From Halobaculum limi (GTDB lineage: Archaea; Halobacteriota; Halobacteria; Halobacteriales; Haloferacaceae): a stretch of DNA of 64,000 bases. Position numbers and translations under genes: made by a program. Positions 50,950-61,979 of the stretch are shown in pieces. The stretch spans positions 1,984,001 to 2,048,000 of the forward strand of contig NZ_CP120468.1 in assembly GCF_029490015.1 (NCBI RefSeq), given 5' to 3'. The notes beneath the pieces are model-generated. The model was not told the origin of the DNA. It did no database searches and saw only the letters and a list, made by a program, of their open reading frames with translations. Every line of letters starts with the position of its first letter. The stretch's first letter is position 1.

Positions 50950-52032
50950 CTACTCGTCGAGGCGAACCGCCGCTCCCGACTCGGTCGACCGGTAGATGCC
51001 GTCGATCACTCGCTGAACGGCCAGCGCCTGATCGATGGTGTTCCGACTCGGTTCGACGCCGGTCGCGACCGCTTCGAGGAACGTCGCCTGTTCGGCGCGG
51101 TGGGTGTCGACGTCGCGCGTCTCGACGTCCGTGTCGGTGAGATGGTGGCCCCCGCCGACGCCGTTCTCGTAGATGGTGAGGTCGCCGCTGCCGCGGTCGA
51201 AGTGAGCACCGGCATCGGTGCCGCGGACGAAGAAGTCGTTGTTCGCGGGCCGGTTTGTCGCCCACGCCGCCTCCAGCGAGACGGTCGTGCCGTCGGCCGT
51301 CCGGATAAACGCCGAGACGGAGTCGTCCACGTCGAAGTCGCCCGGTCCGGAGTCGTCGCCCCACATATCAATGTAGGTGTAGTCGTCGCGACCGCCGAAC
51401 TCCGAGCGTGCGACGCCCGACACCTCGACGATCTCGGGGAAGTCGAGGAAGTACAGCGCCAGGTCGATGGCGTGGACGCCGATGTCGATGAGGCTGCCAC
51501 CGCCGGCGACCTCCTTGCTCGTGAACCACGACCCGCGGCCGGGAACGCCGCGCCGGCGGATGAAGTTCGCCTCGACGTGGGAGACGTCGCCGAAGCGGCC
51601 CTCGTCTTGGTAGTGTTTGATCACTTCGACGGGCGCGGCGAAGCGGTTGTTGAACCCGACCATACAGATGCCGTCGGCGTCGCGTGCGGCGTCTGCGATC
51701 CGCTGGGCCGACTCCAACGAGTGGGCAAGCGGTTTCTCCAGCATCACGTCGAGTCCCCACTCCAGCGCCGAGACGGCGTACTCTTCGTGGAAACGGTTGG
51801 GCGTCGTCACCAGCACCGCGTCGACGATGTCGTACAGTTCGCCGGGGTCCTCGAAGCCCTGGGCGTCGAACCGGTGGATGAAGCGCTCCCGGGCGTCGGC
51901 GTCCACGTCCATCCCGCCGACGAGGTCGGCCCCGAGCGACTCCAGTCGTTCGGCGTGGTGGTGACCGATACCCCCTAGGCCGACGATACCGACGCGTACG
52001 CCAGACGGGTCGAAGCCATCGACGAGACTCAT
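50950..52032 (-). CDS. Gfo/Idh/MocA family oxidoreductase (2)
   Basis: A 360-residue paralogue of the enzyme at 47585-48703. The Rossmann start VGIVGLGGIGHHHAERL, the EKPLAHS motif near residue 96 and GGSLIDIGVHAIDLALY with the active-site pair near residue 179 are all intact. It lies at the 3' end of the sugar ABC gene run, after a 64-bp gap that contains a TACT-N7-GAGTA site. It probably oxidises the imported sugar or its derivative. Confidence 0.9.
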   Translation of the reverse strand: MSLVDGFDPSGVRVGIVGLGGIGHHHAERLESLGADLVGGMDVDADARERFIHRFDAQGFEDPGELYDIVDAVLVTTPNRFHEEYAVSALEWGLDVMLEKPLAHSLESAQRIADAARDADGICMVGFNNRFAAPVEVIKHYQDEGRFGDVSHVEANFIRRRGVPGRGSWFTSKEVAGGGSLIDIGVHAIDLALYFLDFPEIVEVSGVARSEFGGRDDYTYIDMWGDDSGPGDFDVDDSVSAFIRTADGTTVSLEAAWATNRPANNDFFVRGTDAGAHFDRGSGDLTIYENGVGGGHHLTDTDVETRDVDTHRAEQATFLEAVATGVEPSRNTIDQALAVQRVIDGIYRSTESGAAVRLDE

Positions 52033-52048: not shown

Positions 52049-52064
52049 TACTCAAATCTGAGTA
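52049..52064. promoter_or_regulatory. TrmB-type operator, TACT-N7-GAGTA
   Basis: TACTCAAATCTGAGTA matches the published Halobacterium TrmB consensus TACT-N7/8-GAGTA exactly and is palindromic at its ends. It lies 17-32 bp before the ATG of the second Gfo/Idh gene. With a TrmB-family gene 5 kb away in the same locus this is a credible target, though the paralogue there may read a different site. Confidence 0.6.
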
Positions 52065-52292: not shown

Positions 52293-53471
52293 CTACTCGG
52301 CCTCCTCGCTTGCCGCGTCCGCGGTCGTCTCGGCCACTCGCGAGACGCCGTGGACCAACGCTTGTGAGGTGGCGTCGTCGAACAGGTGGATCTTCGCGCG
52401 GTCGAGGACCACTTCCAGTTTGTCTCCCTCTGCGAGTTCGCTGTCGGGGGAGACGCTCATCAGCAGACTGTCGTCGCCGACGGCGCTGCCGCCCATCCCC
52501 GTATCGACGTCCTCGTCGAGCAAGAGGTAGACGAAGATCTCGTCGCCCATCGGCTCCAGCACGTCCACCTCGACCTCCATCGTCTCGGTCGGGTCGGTGG
52601 CGTCGTCGATGAACTCCGTCGGGTAGACGTCTTCCGGTCGGACGCCGAGCGTCACGGTGTCGCCCGGCGACGCGCCGACGTTGTTGACGTCGAAGCTCAC
52701 GTCGTAGTACTCAGAGGAGAACCCGGTAGTGGTGAGTTCGCCGCTCGTGAAGTTCATCGATGGCGACCCGATGAAGCCGGCGACGAACTCGTTTGCCGGC
52801 TCGTTGTAACACGTCAGCGGCGGGGCGAACTGCTGGAGTTCACCCTCGTTGAGGACCGCGATGCGGTCGGACATCGTCATCGCCTCCGCCTGGTCGTGCG
52901 TGACGTAGATGATGGTCGTCTCCAGTTCCTTGTGGAGGCGCTGGAGTTCCGTCCGCATGTGGACGCGGAGCTTTGCGTCGAGGTTCGCCAGTGGCTCGTC
53001 CATCAGGAACACGTCCGGTTCGCGCACGATTGCGCGGGCGATGGCGACGCGCTGGCGCTGGCCACCGGACATCTCGTCGGGCATCCGGTCGAGCATCCCC
53101 TCCATCTGGACGATGCGGGCCGCGTTCTCGACGCGGCGGTCGATCTCCTCCTTCTCGTAGTTGCGCAGGCGCAACCCGAAGGAGATGTTGTCGTACACGT
53201 CCATGTGGGGGAACAGCGCGATGTTCTGGAACACCATCGAGATGCCCCGGTCTTTCGGTGGGAGGTACGTCACGTCGCGCTCCCCGATGGTCACGGTCCC
53301 ACTGCTGGGCGTGGTCAGCCCCGCGATCATCTCCATCGTCGTGGACTTCCCACACCCCGAGGGACCGACGAGCGTGATGAACTCGCCGTCCTCGATGTCG
53401 AGGTTCATATCCTCGACGGCGGTCACATCCCCGTACTGCTTCGTTACGTCTGTTAAGTGTACTCGTGCCAT
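52293..53471 (-). CDS. Carbohydrate ABC transporter ATP-binding protein (MalK/UgpC-like)
   Basis: A 392-residue ATPase of the CUT1 class. Walker A GPSGCGKST is near residue 37, the signature MSGGQRQR near residue 135 and Walker B VFLMDEPLANLDAK near residue 155. The C-terminal MOBE/TOBE region from about 240 on is the regulatory domain of MalK-like proteins. It energises the two permeases encoded upstream. The stop is one base from the small membrane protein. Confidence 0.93.
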   Translation of the reverse strand: MARVHLTDVTKQYGDVTAVEDMNLDIEDGEFITLVGPSGCGKSTTMEMIAGLTTPSSGTVTIGERDVTYLPPKDRGISMVFQNIALFPHMDVYDNISFGLRLRNYEKEEIDRRVENAARIVQMEGMLDRMPDEMSGGQRQRVAIARAIVREPDVFLMDEPLANLDAKLRVHMRTELQRLHKELETTIIYVTHDQAEAMTMSDRIAVLNEGELQQFAPPLTCYNEPANEFVAGFIGSPSMNFTSGELTTTGFSSEYYDVSFDVNNVGASPGDTVTLGVRPEDVYPTEFIDDATDPTETMEVEVDVLEPMGDEIFVYLLLDEDVDTGMGGSAVGDDSLLMSVSPDSELAEGDKLEVVLDRAKIHLFDDATSQALVHGVSRVAETTADAASEEAE

Positions 53472-53484
53472 TGTTGTGTCCTGA

Positions 53485-54420
53485 TTATTCCTTCAGTGCG
53501 CCCGCGGTCAGTCCGCTGACGATACGTTCCTGTGCGACGACGACGAGGATCGCGACCGGCAGCACCGCGATGATGCTGCCCGCGGCCATCACGCCGTAGG
53601 TGATCTGGAACTGGCCCGCGCGTTGCAGGCTCAGCAGGCCGCCCACGATGGGGGCCCAGTTGGCCGGTTGCCCGTTGTTCATCAACTGGCTGAAGAAGAA
53701 CTCGTTGTACACAGAGATGAACGTGAGCACGCCCGCGGTGGCGACGCCGGGTGCCGACAGCGGGATGATGACCCGGAACAGCGCCCCCAGCCGGGTCGTC
53801 CCCTCGACGCGAGCGGCGTCCTCCAGTCCGTCTGGAATCTGCCCGTAGAACGTCGTGAGGATGAAGATAGACAGCGGCATAAACAGCGAACTGAACGGGA
53901 GGATCATCGCGCCGGGCGTGTTGTACAGATTCAGCCCCGGAATGACGTTCCCGGTGAACAGCTGGTACAGCGGCACGAAGAAGGCCGCCGGCGGGAAGTA
54001 ACTGATCGCGAGGACCAGGAGCATGAGCGGTGCCCGGCCGGGGAACTCCAAGCGACCGAACACGTACCCCGCGAGACTCGCGAGCAGCAGCACGACGACG
54101 GTCGTCGACAGCGCGAGCACGAGGCTGTTGAACATGTACCGCAGGAAGTTGACCTTCTCGAACACCTCGATGAACACGCCGAACTGCGGTGTCGCTGGCA
54201 GCATCGACAGCGGCGCGTTCTCCGGTGTCACGGCCAACACCAGCAGGAAGTAGAACGGGAACAGTGTCGTCGCGAGGAAGAACACCGTCGCGACGTAGAA
54301 CATCGCTCTGTACACCCGCTCTGGGTCGTCGATGGACCTCGCGACCCACCGCTGGAGCGGTCCGCGTTTCAGTTCCGGTTCCGCGCTCACGCCACCGTCC
54401 GTTCGTGTGTCGTCGCTCAT
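53485..54420 (-). CDS. Carbohydrate ABC transporter permease (MalG-like)
   Basis: A 311-residue permease with six main spans. The EAA loop that contacts the ATPase appears as EDAARVEGTTRLGALFRVIIP (about residues 211-231; cited by position). It overlaps the first permease gene by four bases and precedes the ATPase gene by 13 bp. With MalF-like it forms the membrane channel. Confidence 0.92.
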   Translation of the reverse strand: MSDDTRTDGGVSAEPELKRGPLQRWVARSIDDPERVYRAMFYVATVFFLATTLFPFYFLLVLAVTPENAPLSMLPATPQFGVFIEVFEKVNFLRYMFNSLVLALSTTVVVLLLASLAGYVFGRLEFPGRAPLMLLVLAISYFPPAAFFVPLYQLFTGNVIPGLNLYNTPGAMILPFSSLFMPLSIFILTTFYGQIPDGLEDAARVEGTTRLGALFRVIIPLSAPGVATAGVLTFISVYNEFFFSQLMNNGQPANWAPIVGGLLSLQRAGQFQITYGVMAAGSIIAVLPVAILVVVAQERIVSGLTAGALKE

Positions 54421-55427
54421 GCCATATCACCACGTGCGTACCCGACGATGTACACCGAGACGACGACCCCGATGATCGCCGCCGTGATGAACGCGATGGT
54501 CGCCGAGGAGCCGAGCAGTCGGTTGTTGAACGTCGTCACCACCAGACACGACAGCGACGGAACCGTCGTACACCCGGCGACCGTCTCGATGAGTCCGTAG
54601 ATGCGCATCGCCTGGATGGTGCGGAACAGCATCGCGACCAGCACCGTCGGCAGGATGATGGGCAGGGTGATGTACTTGAACCGCTGCCACGGCGACGCAC
54701 CTGCGACCTTCGCGACGTCGAAGAGGCTGCGGTCGATGGACTGCATCCCTGCGAGGATGAGCAGCGCCATGAACGCCGTCGTCTTCCAGATGTCGGCCAC
54801 GATGGTGATCATCGTTGCGTCCTGTGCGTTCGCGAGCGGCGTCACCGACAGTAGCCCGATCTGGTTGAGGAATGCCGGATTTTCGGCGGTCCCGACGAGG
54901 AACCCGATGTTCGGCTGGAACATCAGGTAGAAGATCATCCCCTGGACGACGATGGGAATCGCCCACGGGAGGATGATTGCAACCCGGATCCAGCGCCGCC
55001 CGCGGAAGTCCTGGTCGAGGATCAGTGCCTGTGCGAATCCGATCACCGTCTCGAAGGAGACGCTGATGATGGTGAACAGCAGGGTCACGGCGACCGCACT
55101 GTTGAACATCGCCTGCACGGTCAGTTCCTGTGGAAGGAACGGCGACGGCAACAGCGCCGTCCGCTGACCGGTGAGGATCGCGATGTAGTTGTCGAGTGCT
55201 ACGAATCCTCCGACGCTCGCCGCACCCAGGCTGTCGGCGAACAGCGAGATACGGAACGTCGAGAGGAGCGGCCAGAACGCGATGACACCGAGCAACAGCA
55301 GTGCTGGTGTCAACAGCAGGTACGCGTACTGGGTTTCCGAGAGGTTCTCCATCCACCGGACAGCACTCGCGTATGCTCCGTCCCGTGTGCCGGCGGCCGG
55401 ATCACCTCGTTGGGATTCTGTACTCAT
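54417..55427 (-). CDS. Carbohydrate ABC transporter permease (MalF-like)
   Basis: A 336-residue permease with six to seven predicted spans. The EAA-type loop reads DVAKVAGASPWQRFKYITLP (near residue 242). It is the first permease after the binding-protein gene, 66 bp downstream. The N-terminal cytoplasmic part is longer than in MalG, as in CUT1 MalF proteins. Confidence 0.92.
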   Translation of the reverse strand: MSTESQRGDPAAGTRDGAYASAVRWMENLSETQYAYLLLTPALLLLGVIAFWPLLSTFRISLFADSLGAASVGGFVALDNYIAILTGQRTALLPSPFLPQELTVQAMFNSAVAVTLLFTIISVSFETVIGFAQALILDQDFRGRRWIRVAIILPWAIPIVVQGMIFYLMFQPNIGFLVGTAENPAFLNQIGLLSVTPLANAQDATMITIVADIWKTTAFMALLILAGMQSIDRSLFDVAKVAGASPWQRFKYITLPIILPTVLVAMLFRTIQAMRIYGLIETVAGCTTVPSLSCLVVTTFNNRLLGSSATIAFITAAIIGVVVSVYIVGYARGDMA

Positions 55428-55493: not shown

Positions 55494-56975
55494 TTACGCC
55501 GAGCTCTCGATCTCTTCGATGGAACTCTTCAGGTCGCTCATCGCCTGGGTTGCGGTCTTCTCCTGCCGCAGGGCAGCGTTGACCTCCCGGGCGATCTGCG
55601 TGGACTGCTGGCCCCACACCGTCGTCACGGGGCGCGGCAGCGCATTGTCGGCAGCGACAGCGAGGCTGTCGACGTAGCGACCGATGAGATCCAGCGAGCG
55701 GGTCTGCTCGGTGTCGATAAGGTCCGGAATCGGCGGGATCCAGCCACCAATCTCGGCCATCCGCAGGCGGACGGACTCCTCCTGCAGCGCCTGGAACACC
55801 TGCAGCGCCGCGCGCTTGCGCAAGTCGCTCGCGTTCGGGTTGAGGGTGAGGTGCCAGCCGCCCATCGCGGCGGTGGTGCCGCCGATGGAACTGTACTCGG
55901 ACTCCTCCTCGGTGACCGCGTACGGGATTGGCATCACGCCCAGGTCCTCGCCGAAGACGTCCTCTGCGCCGTTGATGTTGATCGAGTACGGCCAGTTGCG
56001 GAGTGCGACCGCGTTGCCGTTCGTGAAGGGTTCACGAGCCGGCTCTTCGGTGTACTGGACGACGGCCTGCGGGGAGATGTTCTCGTAGCCCTCCAGCGCG
56101 GTGTCGTCGTTCTGCCCGTAGATGAACGTCCGCAGCATGCGGATGGCGTTGATGACGCCCTCGCCGTCGACGGTGATCGGCCGGTCGCCGATGGGGCCGA
56201 AGTAGTTCTCGAACTCGCCGAAGTAGGAGCCGCCGTGCGAGCCCATGAACTCGATGAACGAACAGCACGACAGCCCCTCGTAGGAGGAGCCCTGCCACAG
56301 GAAGCCGTTGTCGACGTCCGTGGCGTCCATCGTCTCTCGGACGACCGACGAGAAGTCGCTCCACGTCATCGCCTCGGTGGCCCACGTGTCGAAGTCGTCG
56401 TCGGTGTACCCTGCCTCACGCAGCAGGTCCTTGCGGTACTGAATGGTCGGCAGGTCGATGAACAGCGGGATGCCGAAGAGGTCGCCGTCAGTGTTTTGCG
56501 CCGTCGCGACCATATTGTCGACGTAGTTCTCCTCGACGTTCGAGGTGATGGAGTCCGGCAGCGCCGTGCTGAGGTTCGCGATCTGCTCGCGGGCGATGAA
56601 CGGGATCGTCCACCCGTTGTCCATCATCATGATCGTCGGGCGCTCCTGGCCCGCCGAGAGGATCTGCTGGTACTGGGAGCGTCGGTCGCCGGTCGTGAAC
56701 GAACCGGCGAGGAACTCGATATCGATGTTCTCCGGGAGGCCACCGTCCTCGCGGAGCGTCTGGATGATATCGTCTGCCGCGTTGCTGAAGTTGGAGTCGG
56801 CCGCGATCTGGATCGTCACGTCCTCGGACGGAGGCTCGGTGTTGATCTGCTCGGAGCCGCCACCGCCACCACCGCCGCCGAGGCAGCCAGCTAATCCGAG
56901 TGCCGCGCCCGAAGCGCCTGCGGCCGCGAGATACTCGCGACGCGAAACGCCGTTCCGTGTGCTATCGTCAGACAT
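55494..56975 (-). CDS. Carbohydrate ABC transporter solute-binding lipoprotein
   Basis: A 493-residue binding protein. The Tat motif SRREYLAAAG and the lipobox GLAGC (near residue 31) followed by a run of glycines mark a lipid-anchored protein exported folded, as is usual in haloarchaea. The rest has the cluster D sugar-binding fold (family 1 type). Two adjacent Cys (LSCCSF) in the mature part are unusual. The ATG at 56975 lies 24-32 bp after TATA-like CTATATTAA, so the message is leaderless. It heads the binding protein-permease-permease-ATPase operon. The sugar is unknown. Confidence 0.9.
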   Translation of the reverse strand: MSDDSTRNGVSRREYLAAAGASGAALGLAGCLGGGGGGGGSEQINTEPPSEDVTIQIAADSNFSNAADDIIQTLREDGGLPENIDIEFLAGSFTTGDRRSQYQQILSAGQERPTIMMMDNGWTIPFIAREQIANLSTALPDSITSNVEENYVDNMVATAQNTDGDLFGIPLFIDLPTIQYRKDLLREAGYTDDDFDTWATEAMTWSDFSSVVRETMDATDVDNGFLWQGSSYEGLSCCSFIEFMGSHGGSYFGEFENYFGPIGDRPITVDGEGVINAIRMLRTFIYGQNDDTALEGYENISPQAVVQYTEEPAREPFTNGNAVALRNWPYSININGAEDVFGEDLGVMPIPYAVTEEESEYSSIGGTTAAMGGWHLTLNPNASDLRKRAALQVFQALQEESVRLRMAEIGGWIPPIPDLIDTEQTRSLDLIGRYVDSLAVAADNALPRPVTTVWGQQSTQIAREVNAALRQEKTATQAMSDLKSSIEEIESSA

Positions 56976-56998
56976 CGCGCTGTGATAGGGAACGATCG

Positions 56999-57036
56999 TT
57001 AATATAGCCCACGGGTTTAACAACAGCTGTTGTTAA
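56999..57036 (-). promoter_or_regulatory. Promoter and 20-bp palindromic operator of the sugar ABC operon
   Basis: CTATATTAA on the minus strand (57007-56999) is the TATA box. Just upstream lies a perfect palindrome, TTAACAACAG followed directly by CTGTTGTTAA (57017-57036). Sitting upstream of the BRE/TATA it is placed for activation rather than blocking. The natural binder is the TrmB-family protein encoded next to it. Confidence 0.7.
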
Positions 57037-57123: not shown

Positions 57124-58188
57124 TCAGCGCTCCGGTGACTCGACCATCGTCAACCGCGTGGCCTCGATGTCCTCGACGAGTGCGCCCCACCCCCCGATGC
57201 TGACGAAGTCGCCGTCCACGTCGAGGTCGACCGTCACCTGTCCGGCCAACTCGAAGCCCATCTCCGCTTCCGACCCGAACGGAACCCGCACATCGACGAC
57301 GGTCCCCTCGACGGTGCACTCCTCGCCCGTGTCGGTCCACTGCCCCTCGACTTTGATCCGGACGGGCGACTGTTCCCAGGCGATGTCGTCTAGCGCACGC
57401 ACGAGATGACGGACGTCGAGGAACTCGGCCGGAAGTCCGTCGCCGGTCGCGTCGTACACCGTCCCCCACGGCTCCCACAGGCAGGTGAGGAAGTACCAGT
57501 AGAAGACGTACGTGTGTGTGCGATCGTTTACTAATACCCCGTAGCGATCGTACGAGTCCGGGTGGTGAGCGAACGACGCTCGTCGACGGTCGGCCAACGC
57601 GACGAACGGCGCCGGTAGCGGCCGATGCCGCGCCTCGAGACACACGCCCTCGAACAGGTCACGCGTCGGCGGCAAGTCCTCTTTCTCGGTGTGGACTGAC
57701 ACGCGCACGGAGACGCCTCGCTCGGTCGCCCGGCGGAGCGCCGGCGTGAGTTCCTGCAGGTGCTCGACCGTCGTCGACAGCAGGATCTGGTGGGTCGCCT
57801 CGTCGATGAACGACTCCGCCCGTTCGACGACGGTACGAAAGCGCGTGACGATGCTCGCGTCTCCCGCTTCCAGTTCGGGCTCTTCCCACCGCTGTTCGAC
57901 CTCTTCGGCGGCTTCCTCCAATCGAGTCGCCCGTCGTCGGAGGTCGTCGAGGACAATGGATGGACTGTGTGCGCGTGCGCGAAGGGACCCCTGTTCGTAC
58001 GTCTCGATGTAATCGAGGTCTTCGAGCGAGCGCAACACGTCGTAGATTCGCGGGGCGGGAACGCCGCTTGCGTCGGCCACGTCGGTCGCCGACGCTGTCC
58101 CCAGGTTCAACAGCGCGACGTACGCCTCGGCCTGATACGGGGACAGGCCAGCAGCCTCCAGGGTCTCGACGAGCGACTCCGTTTCCAT
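57124..58188 (-). CDS. TrmB family transcriptional regulator
   Basis: A 354-residue sugar-responsive regulator. The N-terminal winged helix (about 5-75) contains TASATDVADASGVPAPRIYDVL. A coiled-coil segment near 80-115 helps dimerisation. The rest contains a TrmB sensor domain with a phospholipase-D-like part and a C-terminal beta domain that binds sugars. It lies immediately upstream of the binding-protein operon in the same direction. It should control that operon and perhaps the linked dehydrogenases. Confidence 0.9.
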   Translation of the reverse strand: METESLVETLEAAGLSPYQAEAYVALLNLGTASATDVADASGVPAPRIYDVLRSLEDLDYIETYEQGSLRARAHSPSIVLDDLRRRATRLEEAAEEVEQRWEEPELEAGDASIVTRFRTVVERAESFIDEATHQILLSTTVEHLQELTPALRRATERGVSVRVSVHTEKEDLPPTRDLFEGVCLEARHRPLPAPFVALADRRRASFAHHPDSYDRYGVLVNDRTHTYVFYWYFLTCLWEPWGTVYDATGDGLPAEFLDVRHLVRALDDIAWEQSPVRIKVEGQWTDTGEECTVEGTVVDVRVPFGSEAEMGFELAGQVTVDLDVDGDFVSIGGWGALVEDIEATRLTMVESPER

Positions 58189-58252: not shown

Positions 58253-59248
58253 TTAGTCCTTGCCGGGTGCTGGCCATCTAGGCGTCTTCGGTTCGGCGAT
58301 TCGGGCGACTTGGTCGGGGGACAGGTCGAGCGACACGGCGTCGACGTTCTCGCGGAGGTGCTCGCTCGACCGCGGGCCGATGATAGGCGCCGTGACCACG
58401 TCCTGTTCGAGCAGCCACGCCAGCGCCACCTGTGCGGGGGTCGCGTCTTCCTCGTCGGCGACAGCGCGTATCTCGTCGAGAACCGCCCAGTTCTCGTCGG
58501 TGAAGCGGTTCCGAGTGTACTCGTCGCTTTCCGCGCGCAGGCCCTCGGCGGGCGCTTCTCCCCGTTCGTACTTGCCGGTGAGGAAGCCGCCCGCGAGCGG
58601 CGACCACGGGATGACGCCGACGCCCTCCGCTTCACACACTTCCAGCAGGTTCGCCTCCTCGTGGCGGTCGACGGCGCTGTACTCCGGTTGCATACAGGTG
58701 AATCGCTCGTAGTCTTCGATGTCGCTGGTGTAGAGTGCCTTCGTGAACTGATAGGCAGTCATCGTCGACGCGCCGATGTAGCGCACCCGTCCGCTCTCGA
58801 CCAGCGAATCGAGCGCAGAGAGCGTCTCCTCGATGGGTGTCTCGTCGTCCCAGCGGTGGATCTGGTAGAGGTCGATGTAGTCGGTGCCCAGGCGGTCGAG
58901 ACTGGCGTCGACTTGGTCGAGAATGTGCTTGCGCGAGAGGCCCTGTCCGTTTGGGCCGTCGAACATGTCTCCGTACACCTTCGTCGCCAGCACCAACTCC
59001 TCCCGACGGGCCGACGAGACGGCGTCGCCGACGATGGACTCCGACTCTCCGCGCGAGTAGACGTTGGCGGTGTCGAGGAAGTTGATGCCCAGATCCATCG
59101 CCTCGTGGATGAGGTCGACGCTGGCGTCGCGGTCGTTCATCATCCACGGCTCGCCGGAGCCGAAGTTCATACAGCCGAGACACAGTTGCGACACCTCCAG
59201 TCCGGTGTCGCCCAATCGTGTGTACGTCATCCCGTCTTTGTCGACCAT
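58253..59248 (-). CDS. Aldo/keto reductase (1 of tandem pair)
   Basis: A 331-residue NADPH-dependent oxidoreductase with TIM-barrel fold. The catalytic tetrad is visible: Asp in NFLDTANVYS with its Tyr, Lys in VLATKVYG and His in LYQIHRWD. The C-terminal cofactor motif is IIGPRSSEHLREN. It resembles the YajO/GSP69-like group. It is very similar to the gene at 59341-60327, with long identical stretches at the DNA level. It might reduce or oxidise sugar aldehydes in this locus. Confidence 0.9.
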   Translation of the reverse strand: MVDKDGMTYTRLGDTGLEVSQLCLGCMNFGSGEPWMMNDRDASVDLIHEAMDLGINFLDTANVYSRGESESIVGDAVSSARREELVLATKVYGDMFDGPNGQGLSRKHILDQVDASLDRLGTDYIDLYQIHRWDDETPIEETLSALDSLVESGRVRYIGASTMTAYQFTKALYTSDIEDYERFTCMQPEYSAVDRHEEANLLEVCEAEGVGVIPWSPLAGGFLTGKYERGEAPAEGLRAESDEYTRNRFTDENWAVLDEIRAVADEEDATPAQVALAWLLEQDVVTAPIIGPRSSEHLRENVDAVSLDLSPDQVARIAEPKTPRWPAPGKD

Positions 59249-59340
59249 ACGCAACGCTCTCGGCGAGCGTCGATAAGCCTCGGGGACAGCAGAATCCGGG
59301 TGCGGAGGTATCGCGCGGCGCGGTCGGCGAGGCTGACGCG

Positions 59341-60327
59341 CTACGCCTTGGGGTACTGCGGCGTCTTCGGCGCTGCGATCCGGTCGACCTGCGATTCGCT
59401 CAACTCGACGCCGAGTGCCGCGACATTTTCGTGGAGGTGTTCGCTCGTGCGTGGCCCGATGATGGGTGCCGTGACCACGTCCTGTTCGAGTAGCCACGCC
59501 AGCGCCACCTGTGCAGGTGAGGCGTCTTCCTCCGCGGCGACCGCTCGGACCGCGTCGAGGACGTCCCAGTTCTCGTCGGTGAAGTAGCCACGGACCGACT
59601 CGGAGGCCGCGCCGCGTGTCCCGTCTTCGGGGTCGCCGTCTCGTTCGTACTTGCCGGTGAGGAAGCCGCCTGCGAGCGGTGACCACGGGATAACACCCAC
59701 GCCCTCTGCCTCACACACGTCCAGCAGGTTCGCCTCCTCGTAGCGGGCGACCGCGGAGTACTCCGGTTGCATACACGCGAACCGCTCGTAGTCTTCGATG
59801 TCACTGGTGTACAGCGCCTTCGTGAACTGGTAGGCGGTCATCGTCGACGCGCCGATGTAGCGGACGCGCCCCGTCTCGACGAGGTGATCCAGCGCCGAGA
59901 GCGTCTCCTCGATGGGCGTATGCTCGTCCCAGCGGTGGATCTGGTAGAGGTCGACATAGTCGGTGCCGAGGCGGTCGAGACTGGCGTCGACCTGGTCGAG
60001 AATATGCTTGCGCGAGAGCCCCTGCCCGTTGGGACCGTCGCGCATCTCGCCGTACACCTTCGTCGCGAGGACGAGTTCGTCGCGGCTCGCACTCTCGACG
60101 GCGTCGCCGACGATATCCTCGCTCTCGCCGGTCGAGTAGACGTTGGCGGTGTCGAGGAAGTTGATGCCCAGATCCATCGCCTCGTGGATGAGGTCGATGC
60201 TGGCGTCGCGGTCGTTCATCATCCACGGCTGTTCGCTCCCGAAGTTCATACAGCCGAGACACAGTTGCGACACCTCCAGTCCGGTGTCGCCCAACCGCGT
60301 GTACGCCATCGTCTCGTCGTCACTCAT
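59341..60327 (-). CDS. Aldo/keto reductase (2 of tandem pair)
   Basis: A 328-residue paralogue of the neighbouring gene with all tetrad residues conserved (NFLDTANVYS, VLATKVYG, LYQIHRWD). The cofactor motif reads IIGPRTSEHLHEN. The two differ mainly around residues 240-260 and at the C terminus, so the substrate may differ. It is 92 bp upstream of the first copy and ends the carbohydrate locus next to ribosomal genes. Confidence 0.9.
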   Translation of the reverse strand: MSDDETMAYTRLGDTGLEVSQLCLGCMNFGSEQPWMMNDRDASIDLIHEAMDLGINFLDTANVYSTGESEDIVGDAVESASRDELVLATKVYGEMRDGPNGQGLSRKHILDQVDASLDRLGTDYVDLYQIHRWDEHTPIEETLSALDHLVETGRVRYIGASTMTAYQFTKALYTSDIEDYERFACMQPEYSAVARYEEANLLDVCEAEGVGVIPWSPLAGGFLTGKYERDGDPEDGTRGAASESVRGYFTDENWDVLDAVRAVAAEEDASPAQVALAWLLEQDVVTAPIIGPRTSEHLHENVAALGVELSESQVDRIAAPKTPQYPKA

Positions 60328-60448
60328 ACACGACGGCGCGGCGGCGAGCCGATTAACTCCCGGTGATCCGACGCGGACGACCCTCGTTCGCCGCTCGTCT
60401 GTGTGCAGATCACACGCACAGCGCCGCGGAATCGCTCGCAAAGACAAT

Positions 60449-61157: not shown

Positions 61158-61979
61158 ATGCACGATTACCACGCCCACTCCGTGTACTCGGACGGGAGCA
61201 ACCTCAGGCGGATGCTCGATGCCGCCACCGAGGCCGGACTCGACGGCGTGGGCTTTGCAGATCACTGTACGCTCACTCGCGACCCACAGTGGCGACGGCA
61301 GCGTAATCGTTACGCCCGAAACTTCGACCGGACGTACGACCGCCGGAGGGCCGTGCTATCGTCGCTCCGTGCCGACTACGACGTCGACATCTACGACGCC
61401 GTCGAGGTGGACTACGAACCCGGGTTGGAGGAGCGAATCCGGTCGTTTCTCGACGAGGCTGGATTCGACTACGCACTCGGGAGCGTCCACTACGTCGGCG
61501 AGTACTCCGTCTTCTCGTTTCAGGACTTCTCGACGCCCGACACGCCGTCGCCCGAGGTGATGGTCGCGGACTACTACGAGACGGTCGCCTCGCTGGTCGA
61601 GTCGGAACTGTTCAACGTCGCCGCACACGTCGACGTCGTCGAGGCACACCCACAACTGACCGGCCTGCGAACGCCCGACCAAATCGAACGAGTTGCCGAC
61701 GCGTTCACACGCTCGCGGACGATTCCCGAAGTGAACGCCAAGCGCGTGGGTCGGAGCGGGGGGCCAGACTTCCACCCGTCCGGTGACTTGCTGGACGCGC
61801 TCGTGGATCGAGGGGTACCGTTCACGCTCGGGACCGACGCCCACGACCCCAGTGAATACGACGTTCGCTCGAACGCGCTGTCCCGTTTCTGTGCTGCCCA
61901 CGACCTCGAGGTGGTGTCGCCGTTCGACGTGCCGCCGCGTCGGCAGTCGGCCGATGAACGGCCACAGGCCGCCGAGTAA
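61158..61979 (+). CDS. PHP domain phosphoesterase (histidinol-phosphatase-like)
   Basis: A 273-residue metal-dependent phosphoesterase. The PHP motifs are all present: HAHSVYSDGS (5-14), ADHC near 34, the EVDYE segment near 83, GSVHYVGE near 110, VAAHVDVVEAH near 156 and GTDAHDPSEYD near 229. The family includes histidinol phosphatase and phosphoesterases for nucleotides; which one is not clear. It sits between L11 and the L1 operon without an obvious link to translation. Confidence 0.85.
   Translation: MHDYHAHSVYSDGSNLRRMLDAATEAGLDGVGFADHCTLTRDPQWRRQRNRYARNFDRTYDRRRAVLSSLRADYDVDIYDAVEVDYEPGLEERIRSFLDEAGFDYALGSVHYVGEYSVFSFQDFSTPDTPSPEVMVADYYETVASLVESELFNVAAHVDVVEAHPQLTGLRTPDQIERVADAFTRSRTIPEVNAKRVGRSGGPDFHPSGDLLDALVDRGVPFTLGTDAHDPSEYDVRSNALSRFCAAHDLEVVSPFDVPPRRQSADERPQAAE

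Follow-up and report, generated by a model that had tools for sequence, protein, structure and literature searches.

A predicted operator before a haloarchaeal sugar-transporter operon and a neighbouring TrmB paralog as its proposed reader

A perfect 20-bp palindrome lying between a trmB-family gene and a sugar ABC-transporter operon of Halobaculum raises the question of whether it is a genuine regulatory site and, if so, which protein reads it. Comparison of the 64-kb stretch of DNA analysed here (hereafter the window) with related genomes leads us to propose, with a probability of about 0.76, that the palindrome serves the transporter operon as its operator and that its reader would be the TrmB-family protein encoded immediately upstream.

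The palindrome and its promoter

The palindrome TTAACAACAGCTGTTGTTAA occupies positions 57017-57036 exactly as claimed in the initial annotation, reads with the minus-strand genes and is the longest in the window, being the sole perfect palindrome of at least 20 bp, followed by two GC-rich 18-mers. Pattern searches, on which all genome-wide motif counts given here are based, find it only once in the 3.48-Mb Halobaculum genome, even allowing 3 mismatches. The chance expectation, first put at about 0.06 per 64 kb, was too low: recalculation with the window's GC content of 66.7% gives 0.18 perfect 20-bp palindromes per 64 kb, a first-order Markov model gives 0.38, and none with at least 12 A/T, i.e. 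as AT-rich as TTAACAACAGCTGTTGTTAA, was found in 60 simulated windows. The features of the locus are the following:

57124..58188, minus strand: local TrmB-family regulator with winged-helix and sugar-binding domains (Pfam PF01978 and PF11495), the proposed reader of the operator
57017..57036, minus strand: predicted operator, inverted repeat TTAACAAC-AGCT-GTTGTTAA, spanning -61 to -42 relative to the ATG of the solute-binding protein (SBP) gene; in orthologous promoters its arms are kept while its centre varies
57007..57012, minus strand: putative BRE GTGGGC, separated by 4 bp from the operator upstream of it, inferred from its position relative to the TATA box
56999..57006, minus strand: TATA-like box TATATTAA, conserved in Halobaculum and Halobellus, beginning 31 bp before the ATG at 56973-56975
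55494..56975, minus strand: sugar ABC transporter SBP (SBP_bac_1, Pfam PF01547), first gene of the operon
54417..55427, minus strand: ABC transporter permease 1 (Pfam PF00528)
53485..54420, minus strand: ABC transporter permease 2 (Pfam PF00528)
52293..53471, minus strand: MalK/UgpC-type ATP-binding protein (Pfam PF00005 and OB_MalK; NCBIfam)
52049..52064, minus strand: predicted second operator TACTCA-GATT-TGAGTA, of core TrmB type, at -32 to -17 of the dehydrogenase start; intact in 8/10 Halobaculum
50950..52032, minus strand: Gfo/Idh/MocA dehydrogenase, with DgpA as nearest solved structure; its Halorubrum ortholog bears the TTAACAAC operator

The minus-strand gene order is trmB, then SBP, the two permeases and the MalK/UgpC-type ATPase, and then the Gfo/Idh dehydrogenase. 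Two further elements of the initial description agree with this layout, as the TATA-like box starts 10 bp away from the palindrome and trmB adjoins the latter, upstream and on the same strand. The downstream gene had also been called leaderless, which for the SBP gene is plausible, because the TATA-like box begins 31 bp before its ATG. The block that follows this box (56983-56998, minus strand), AAYGATYGTTCCCTAT, is conserved in Halobaculum and also, in altered form, before the transporters of Halobellus and Halorubrum; it may represent either another half-operator or an element of the core promoter. Upstream of trmB, the window comprises two tandem, near-alike aldo/keto-reductase-like genes (58253-60447), and a gene for a PHP-like protein (61158-61979) is situated between apparent ribosomal L11 (60363-60968) and L1 (62117-62755) genes.

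Conservation at the transporter and dehydrogenase promoters

The results obtained for Halobaculum evidence a conserved form TTWACAAC-N4-GTTGTWAA, with arms kept and centre free, in 9 of 11 genomes, each of these nine having exactly one TTAACAAC-N4-GTTGTWAA match, located between the trmB ortholog and the transporter. The operator centres in orthologous promoters include AGCT, TACT, TGTC, AGCC, TCCT and AGGT, among others. Since the arms are constant while the central four bases are free across Halobaculum, and since the right arm is GTTGTAAA in most species, the perfection of the palindrome (its AGCT centre and perfectly matching arms) is incidental, the conserved element being an inverted repeat whose four central bases are free. 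G017 and G019, the two Halobaculum genomes in which the motif is missing, keep trmB, lack the transporter and have the dehydrogenase directly after trmB; a search for SBP homologs in both returned no close homolog (best E about 4e-6). In a locus of Halobaculum saliterrae (L124, 10001-12456) the dehydrogenase directly follows trmB and the transporter operon of other species is missing.

Beyond Halobaculum, the motif is present in four genomes of the genus that includes Halobellus rarus, those with the closest trmB orthologs, and most other genomes of that genus have neither. The motif or its variants precede the orthologous transporter across the Haloferacaceae and, outside this family, in Halomarina and other genomes; Halorubrum, Haloferax (TACTACAACAGCGGTAGTA) and Halohasta have such forms, and metagenome-derived genomes are also positive. 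In many motif-bearing genomes trmB is adjacent to or near the transporter, sometimes in convergent orientation, and in Haloferax it is found elsewhere in the genome. A lack of conservation in relatives that keep the operon had been named among the findings that would speak against the site; when this was checked, the arms were seen to be conserved with the transporter promoter. The palindrome is thus very probably a real conserved operator before a haloarchaeal sugar-transporter operon. A literature search for the motif string in open-access papers yielded nothing relevant.

Two explanations that dispense with a regulator are difficult to reconcile with this distribution. Regardless of composition, chance should produce 0.2-0.4 perfect 20-bp palindromes per window, but a chance origin without function is extremely improbable in view of arms that are conserved over dozens of species in orthologous promoters, and of a motif found in 52 genomes versus 6 for the reversed-pattern control. 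Only marginally less improbable is a role at the RNA level, as a hairpin or terminator for the upstream trmB. The palindrome lies 87 bp past the stop codon of that gene, on its strand, and has the potential for an 8-bp stem; however, the motif persists before transporters whose trmB is convergent and also at an unlinked dehydrogenase promoter, on which grounds the terminator was rejected, and arm changes are uncompensated, with GTTGTAAA facing TTAACAAC in most species.

A distinct picture resulted from the dehydrogenase promoter. The form TTAACAAC-N4-GTTGTGAA, or a variant of it with GTAGT, is found at the dehydrogenase ortholog of Halorubrum and several other genera, where it covers the expected TATA/start region at about -28 to -9 relative to the ATG; in Halorubrum this position is fixed at -28..-9 and the gene is unlinked to the local trmB. 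Halobaculum has there TACTCR-N4-YGAGTA, intact in the eight species already mentioned, and this site has decayed in G017 and G019, the same two genomes that are without the transporter. The palindrome does not contain the core-TrmB operator TACT-N7-8-GAGTA, an exact match to which is found at 52049-52064. It had indeed been noted that the palindrome differs from a TACT-N7-GAGTA site 5 kb away, and the latter proves to be a separate conserved element of the dehydrogenase promoter. The form TACTC-N6-GAGTA occurs six times in this genome versus once in the control, including sites at KDPG aldolase and ppsA. The published motif of core TrmB is TACT-N7-8-GAGTA (PMC4158304), and ppsA is a TrmB-bound gene in Har. 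hispanica (PMC10817205); the sites at the dehydrogenase, KDPG aldolase and ppsA fit core TrmB as their predicted reader. Given the match of the dehydrogenase site to the published motif and the binding of ppsA in Har. hispanica, two TrmB paralogs probably share the locus in Halobaculum. A new motif for the local TrmB and two regulators at one locus had been offered as alternatives, and the comparative evidence supports both together.

In many Halorubrum (L186 and similar loci) about 7 kb separate the core TrmB gene from the dehydrogenase, and in Haloferax (G028, G030) about 1-2 kb. The general regulator and the dehydrogenase pathway form a conserved neighbourhood in Halorubrum and Haloferax.

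The local TrmB and other candidate readers

The N-terminal winged helix of the local TrmB scores 60.1 bits against PF01978 (cut-off 25.6), its best solved relatives being TrmBL2 and TrmB, and the C-terminal sugar-binding domain scores 169.9 bits against PF11495. The DNA-contacting Tyr-Asp pair of the recognition helix (Y49-D50) is invariant in 11 aligned orthologs, and G333 and E339 are also invariant, with the spacing of the G320/E326 pair (PMC4158304). Against the NF047392 equivalog the protein reaches 141.3 bits, below the 500-bit cut-off, whereas core TrmB orthologs in relatives score 568-612 bits, and the two fall in separate clades (support 100/99). On account of this, the local TrmB is classified as a two-domain TrmB-family paralog distinct from the core haloarchaeal TrmB (VNG1451C type).

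Three lines of evidence make the local TrmB the best candidate reader, namely its linkage to the motif through rearrangements, the loss or decay of the motif in the absence of the clade, and the covariation of residue 46, in the recognition helix, with the half-site. Using a Halorubrum-specific motif scoring that was chosen after inspection, the dehydrogenase motif was scored as intact in 29 of the 39 Halorubrum genomes that possess the local clade or its 43% relative, versus 2 of the 10 that possess neither (Fisher p 0.0027), a count inflated by shared ancestry. In clade-lacking genomes of other genera (G021, G101-103, G056-059 and G159) the dehydrogenase is present and the motif absent there, and in G021, G102 and G103 the transporter is likewise present without the motif, as read by eye. 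With Pro46 in the local TrmB, all 20 classified transporter sites are GTTGT/ATTGT, and with Ala46, 28 of 34 are GTAGT/ATAGT, counts that omit G095 and G099 (Pro46 with other half-sites) and are again inflated by common descent. Tree-controlled pairs gave 3.3 concordant and 0 discordant of 5 for clade versus motif, and 1.9 concordant and 0 discordant of 3 for residue 46 versus half-site, in both cases too few for significance.

Other observations run counter to this assignment. Four genomes (G134, G138 and the drafts G158 and G161) carry the motif with no clade member detected, in assemblies that are 74-94% complete; 10 Halorubrum with the TrmB or the 43% relative have a degenerate dehydrogenase site; and the Halobaculum dehydrogenase promoters are without the motif despite the presence of the TrmB. 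G109 was considered as a further counter-example without TrmB and rejected, as the 43% relative is present, its gene being split by an assembly gap. Adapter-like sequence and N surround this gap inside the trmB-like gene (L210, G109:C36), and the split is probably an assembly artefact.

The operator could be real and yet be read by core TrmB or another transcription factor, the neighbouring TrmB controlling something else, which we regard as unlikely. The core gene is a near neighbour of the dehydrogenase in Haloferax and Halorubrum, in G004/G005 it stands beside the transporter, and the four incomplete genomes just mentioned are in line with such a reader; however, core TrmB is also present in genomes that lack both the local clade and the motif, so that it cannot alone explain the motif and was rejected as sole reader. 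Moreover, the TACTC-N6-GAGTA sites in this genome fit core TrmB, and the presence of no more than one or two TTAACAAC sites in each genome points to a reader of their own. It is a little less likely still that both paralogs bind either type of site, with partly shared and competing operators. Orthologous dehydrogenase promoters do have TACTCG-N4-CGAGTA in Halobaculum versus TTAACAAC-N4-GTTGTGAA in Halorubrum at a similar distance from the ATG, and Haloferax transporters show an intermediate TACTAC...GTAGTA form, but in eight Halobaculum species the letters of the two motifs stay distinct, on promoters that are 5 kb apart. With the local TrmB as the preferred reader, this protein would most likely have a binding motif unlike the known haloarchaeal TrmB motif.

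Proposed mechanism and relation to known TrmB systems

In the mechanism that we propose, a dimer of the local TrmB would use its winged-helix domain to bind TTWACAAC-N4-GTTGTWAA immediately upstream of BRE/TATA, and a sugar ligand on the C-terminal domain would make it release the operator or change its action. For TrmBL1, Tgr and haloarchaeal TrmB, a site upstream of BRE corresponds to activation and a site on TATA/start to repression (PMC4158304, PMC10817205). From this position rule, the local TrmB would be expected to repress the Halorubrum dehydrogenase, and activation of the transporter is moderately favoured over its repression; repression by occlusion is possible at the transporter since no more than 4 bp separate the operator from the putative BRE. 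Autoregulation of trmB through the motif was considered and rejected, as inspection of 23 loci by eye revealed no copy in the 110 bp that precede trmB. In respect to the ligand, the solved structure nearest to the dehydrogenase is that of DgpA, which we take to be a glycoside oxidoreductase, and this suggests by analogy a glycoside or related sugar.

The predicted element, an inverted repeat next to the BRE/TATA of sugar genes and conserved in orthologous promoters, resembles TrmB-type operators. The TrmB of Halobacterium salinarum (VNG1451C) and Haloarcula hispanica (HAH_1548), NF047392, has the same two-domain architecture as the local TrmB, and combines a short inverted-repeat operator near BRE/TATA, sugar metabolism and a dual position rule, as likewise proposed here (PMC4158304, PMC10817205). 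Its motif, however, is TACT-N7-8-GAGTA, against TTAACAAC-N4-GTTGTTAA in the present case, and the VNG1451C gene, unlike the local trmB, is not beside sugar-transporter genes (PMC4158304). In this last respect the closer parallel is the TrmB of the trehalose/maltose operon of Pyrococcus furiosus and Thermococcus litoralis, whose gene is beside a MalEFGK-type ABC transporter and whose palindromic operator sits at the binding-protein gene's promoter (PMC4158304), although that operator, TACT-N3-AGTA, lies on BRE/TATA and represses, whereas the local site is upstream of BRE and has different letters. TrmBL1/Tgr uses one motif that activates upstream of BRE/TATA and represses downstream (PMC4158304), which resembles the transporter versus dehydrogenase placement; its motif TATCAC-N5-GTGATA (the Thermococcales glycolytic motif) differs from the local one, and it has tens of global targets versus one or two sites per genome.

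Most two-domain TrmB homologs are in Halobacteria, and the two-domain haloarchaeal proteins are described as functionally uncharacterised except for VNG_1451C, to which the same work adds the Har. hispanica ortholog (PMC10817205). The local TrmB would be a dedicated paralog, for which we predict an operator, a regulon of two promoters and a residue that may set specificity. Tentatively, and at somewhat below even odds, we suggest that the two TrmB paralogs may partition one catabolic locus whose operators were exchanged in evolution, the dehydrogenase having a core-TrmB site in Halobaculum and a local-TrmB site in Halorubrum and relatives, with residue 46 helping to set the half-site (Pro for GTTGT, Ala mostly for GTAGT). 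The locus offers a natural example of paralogous archaeal regulators that may have exchanged operators.
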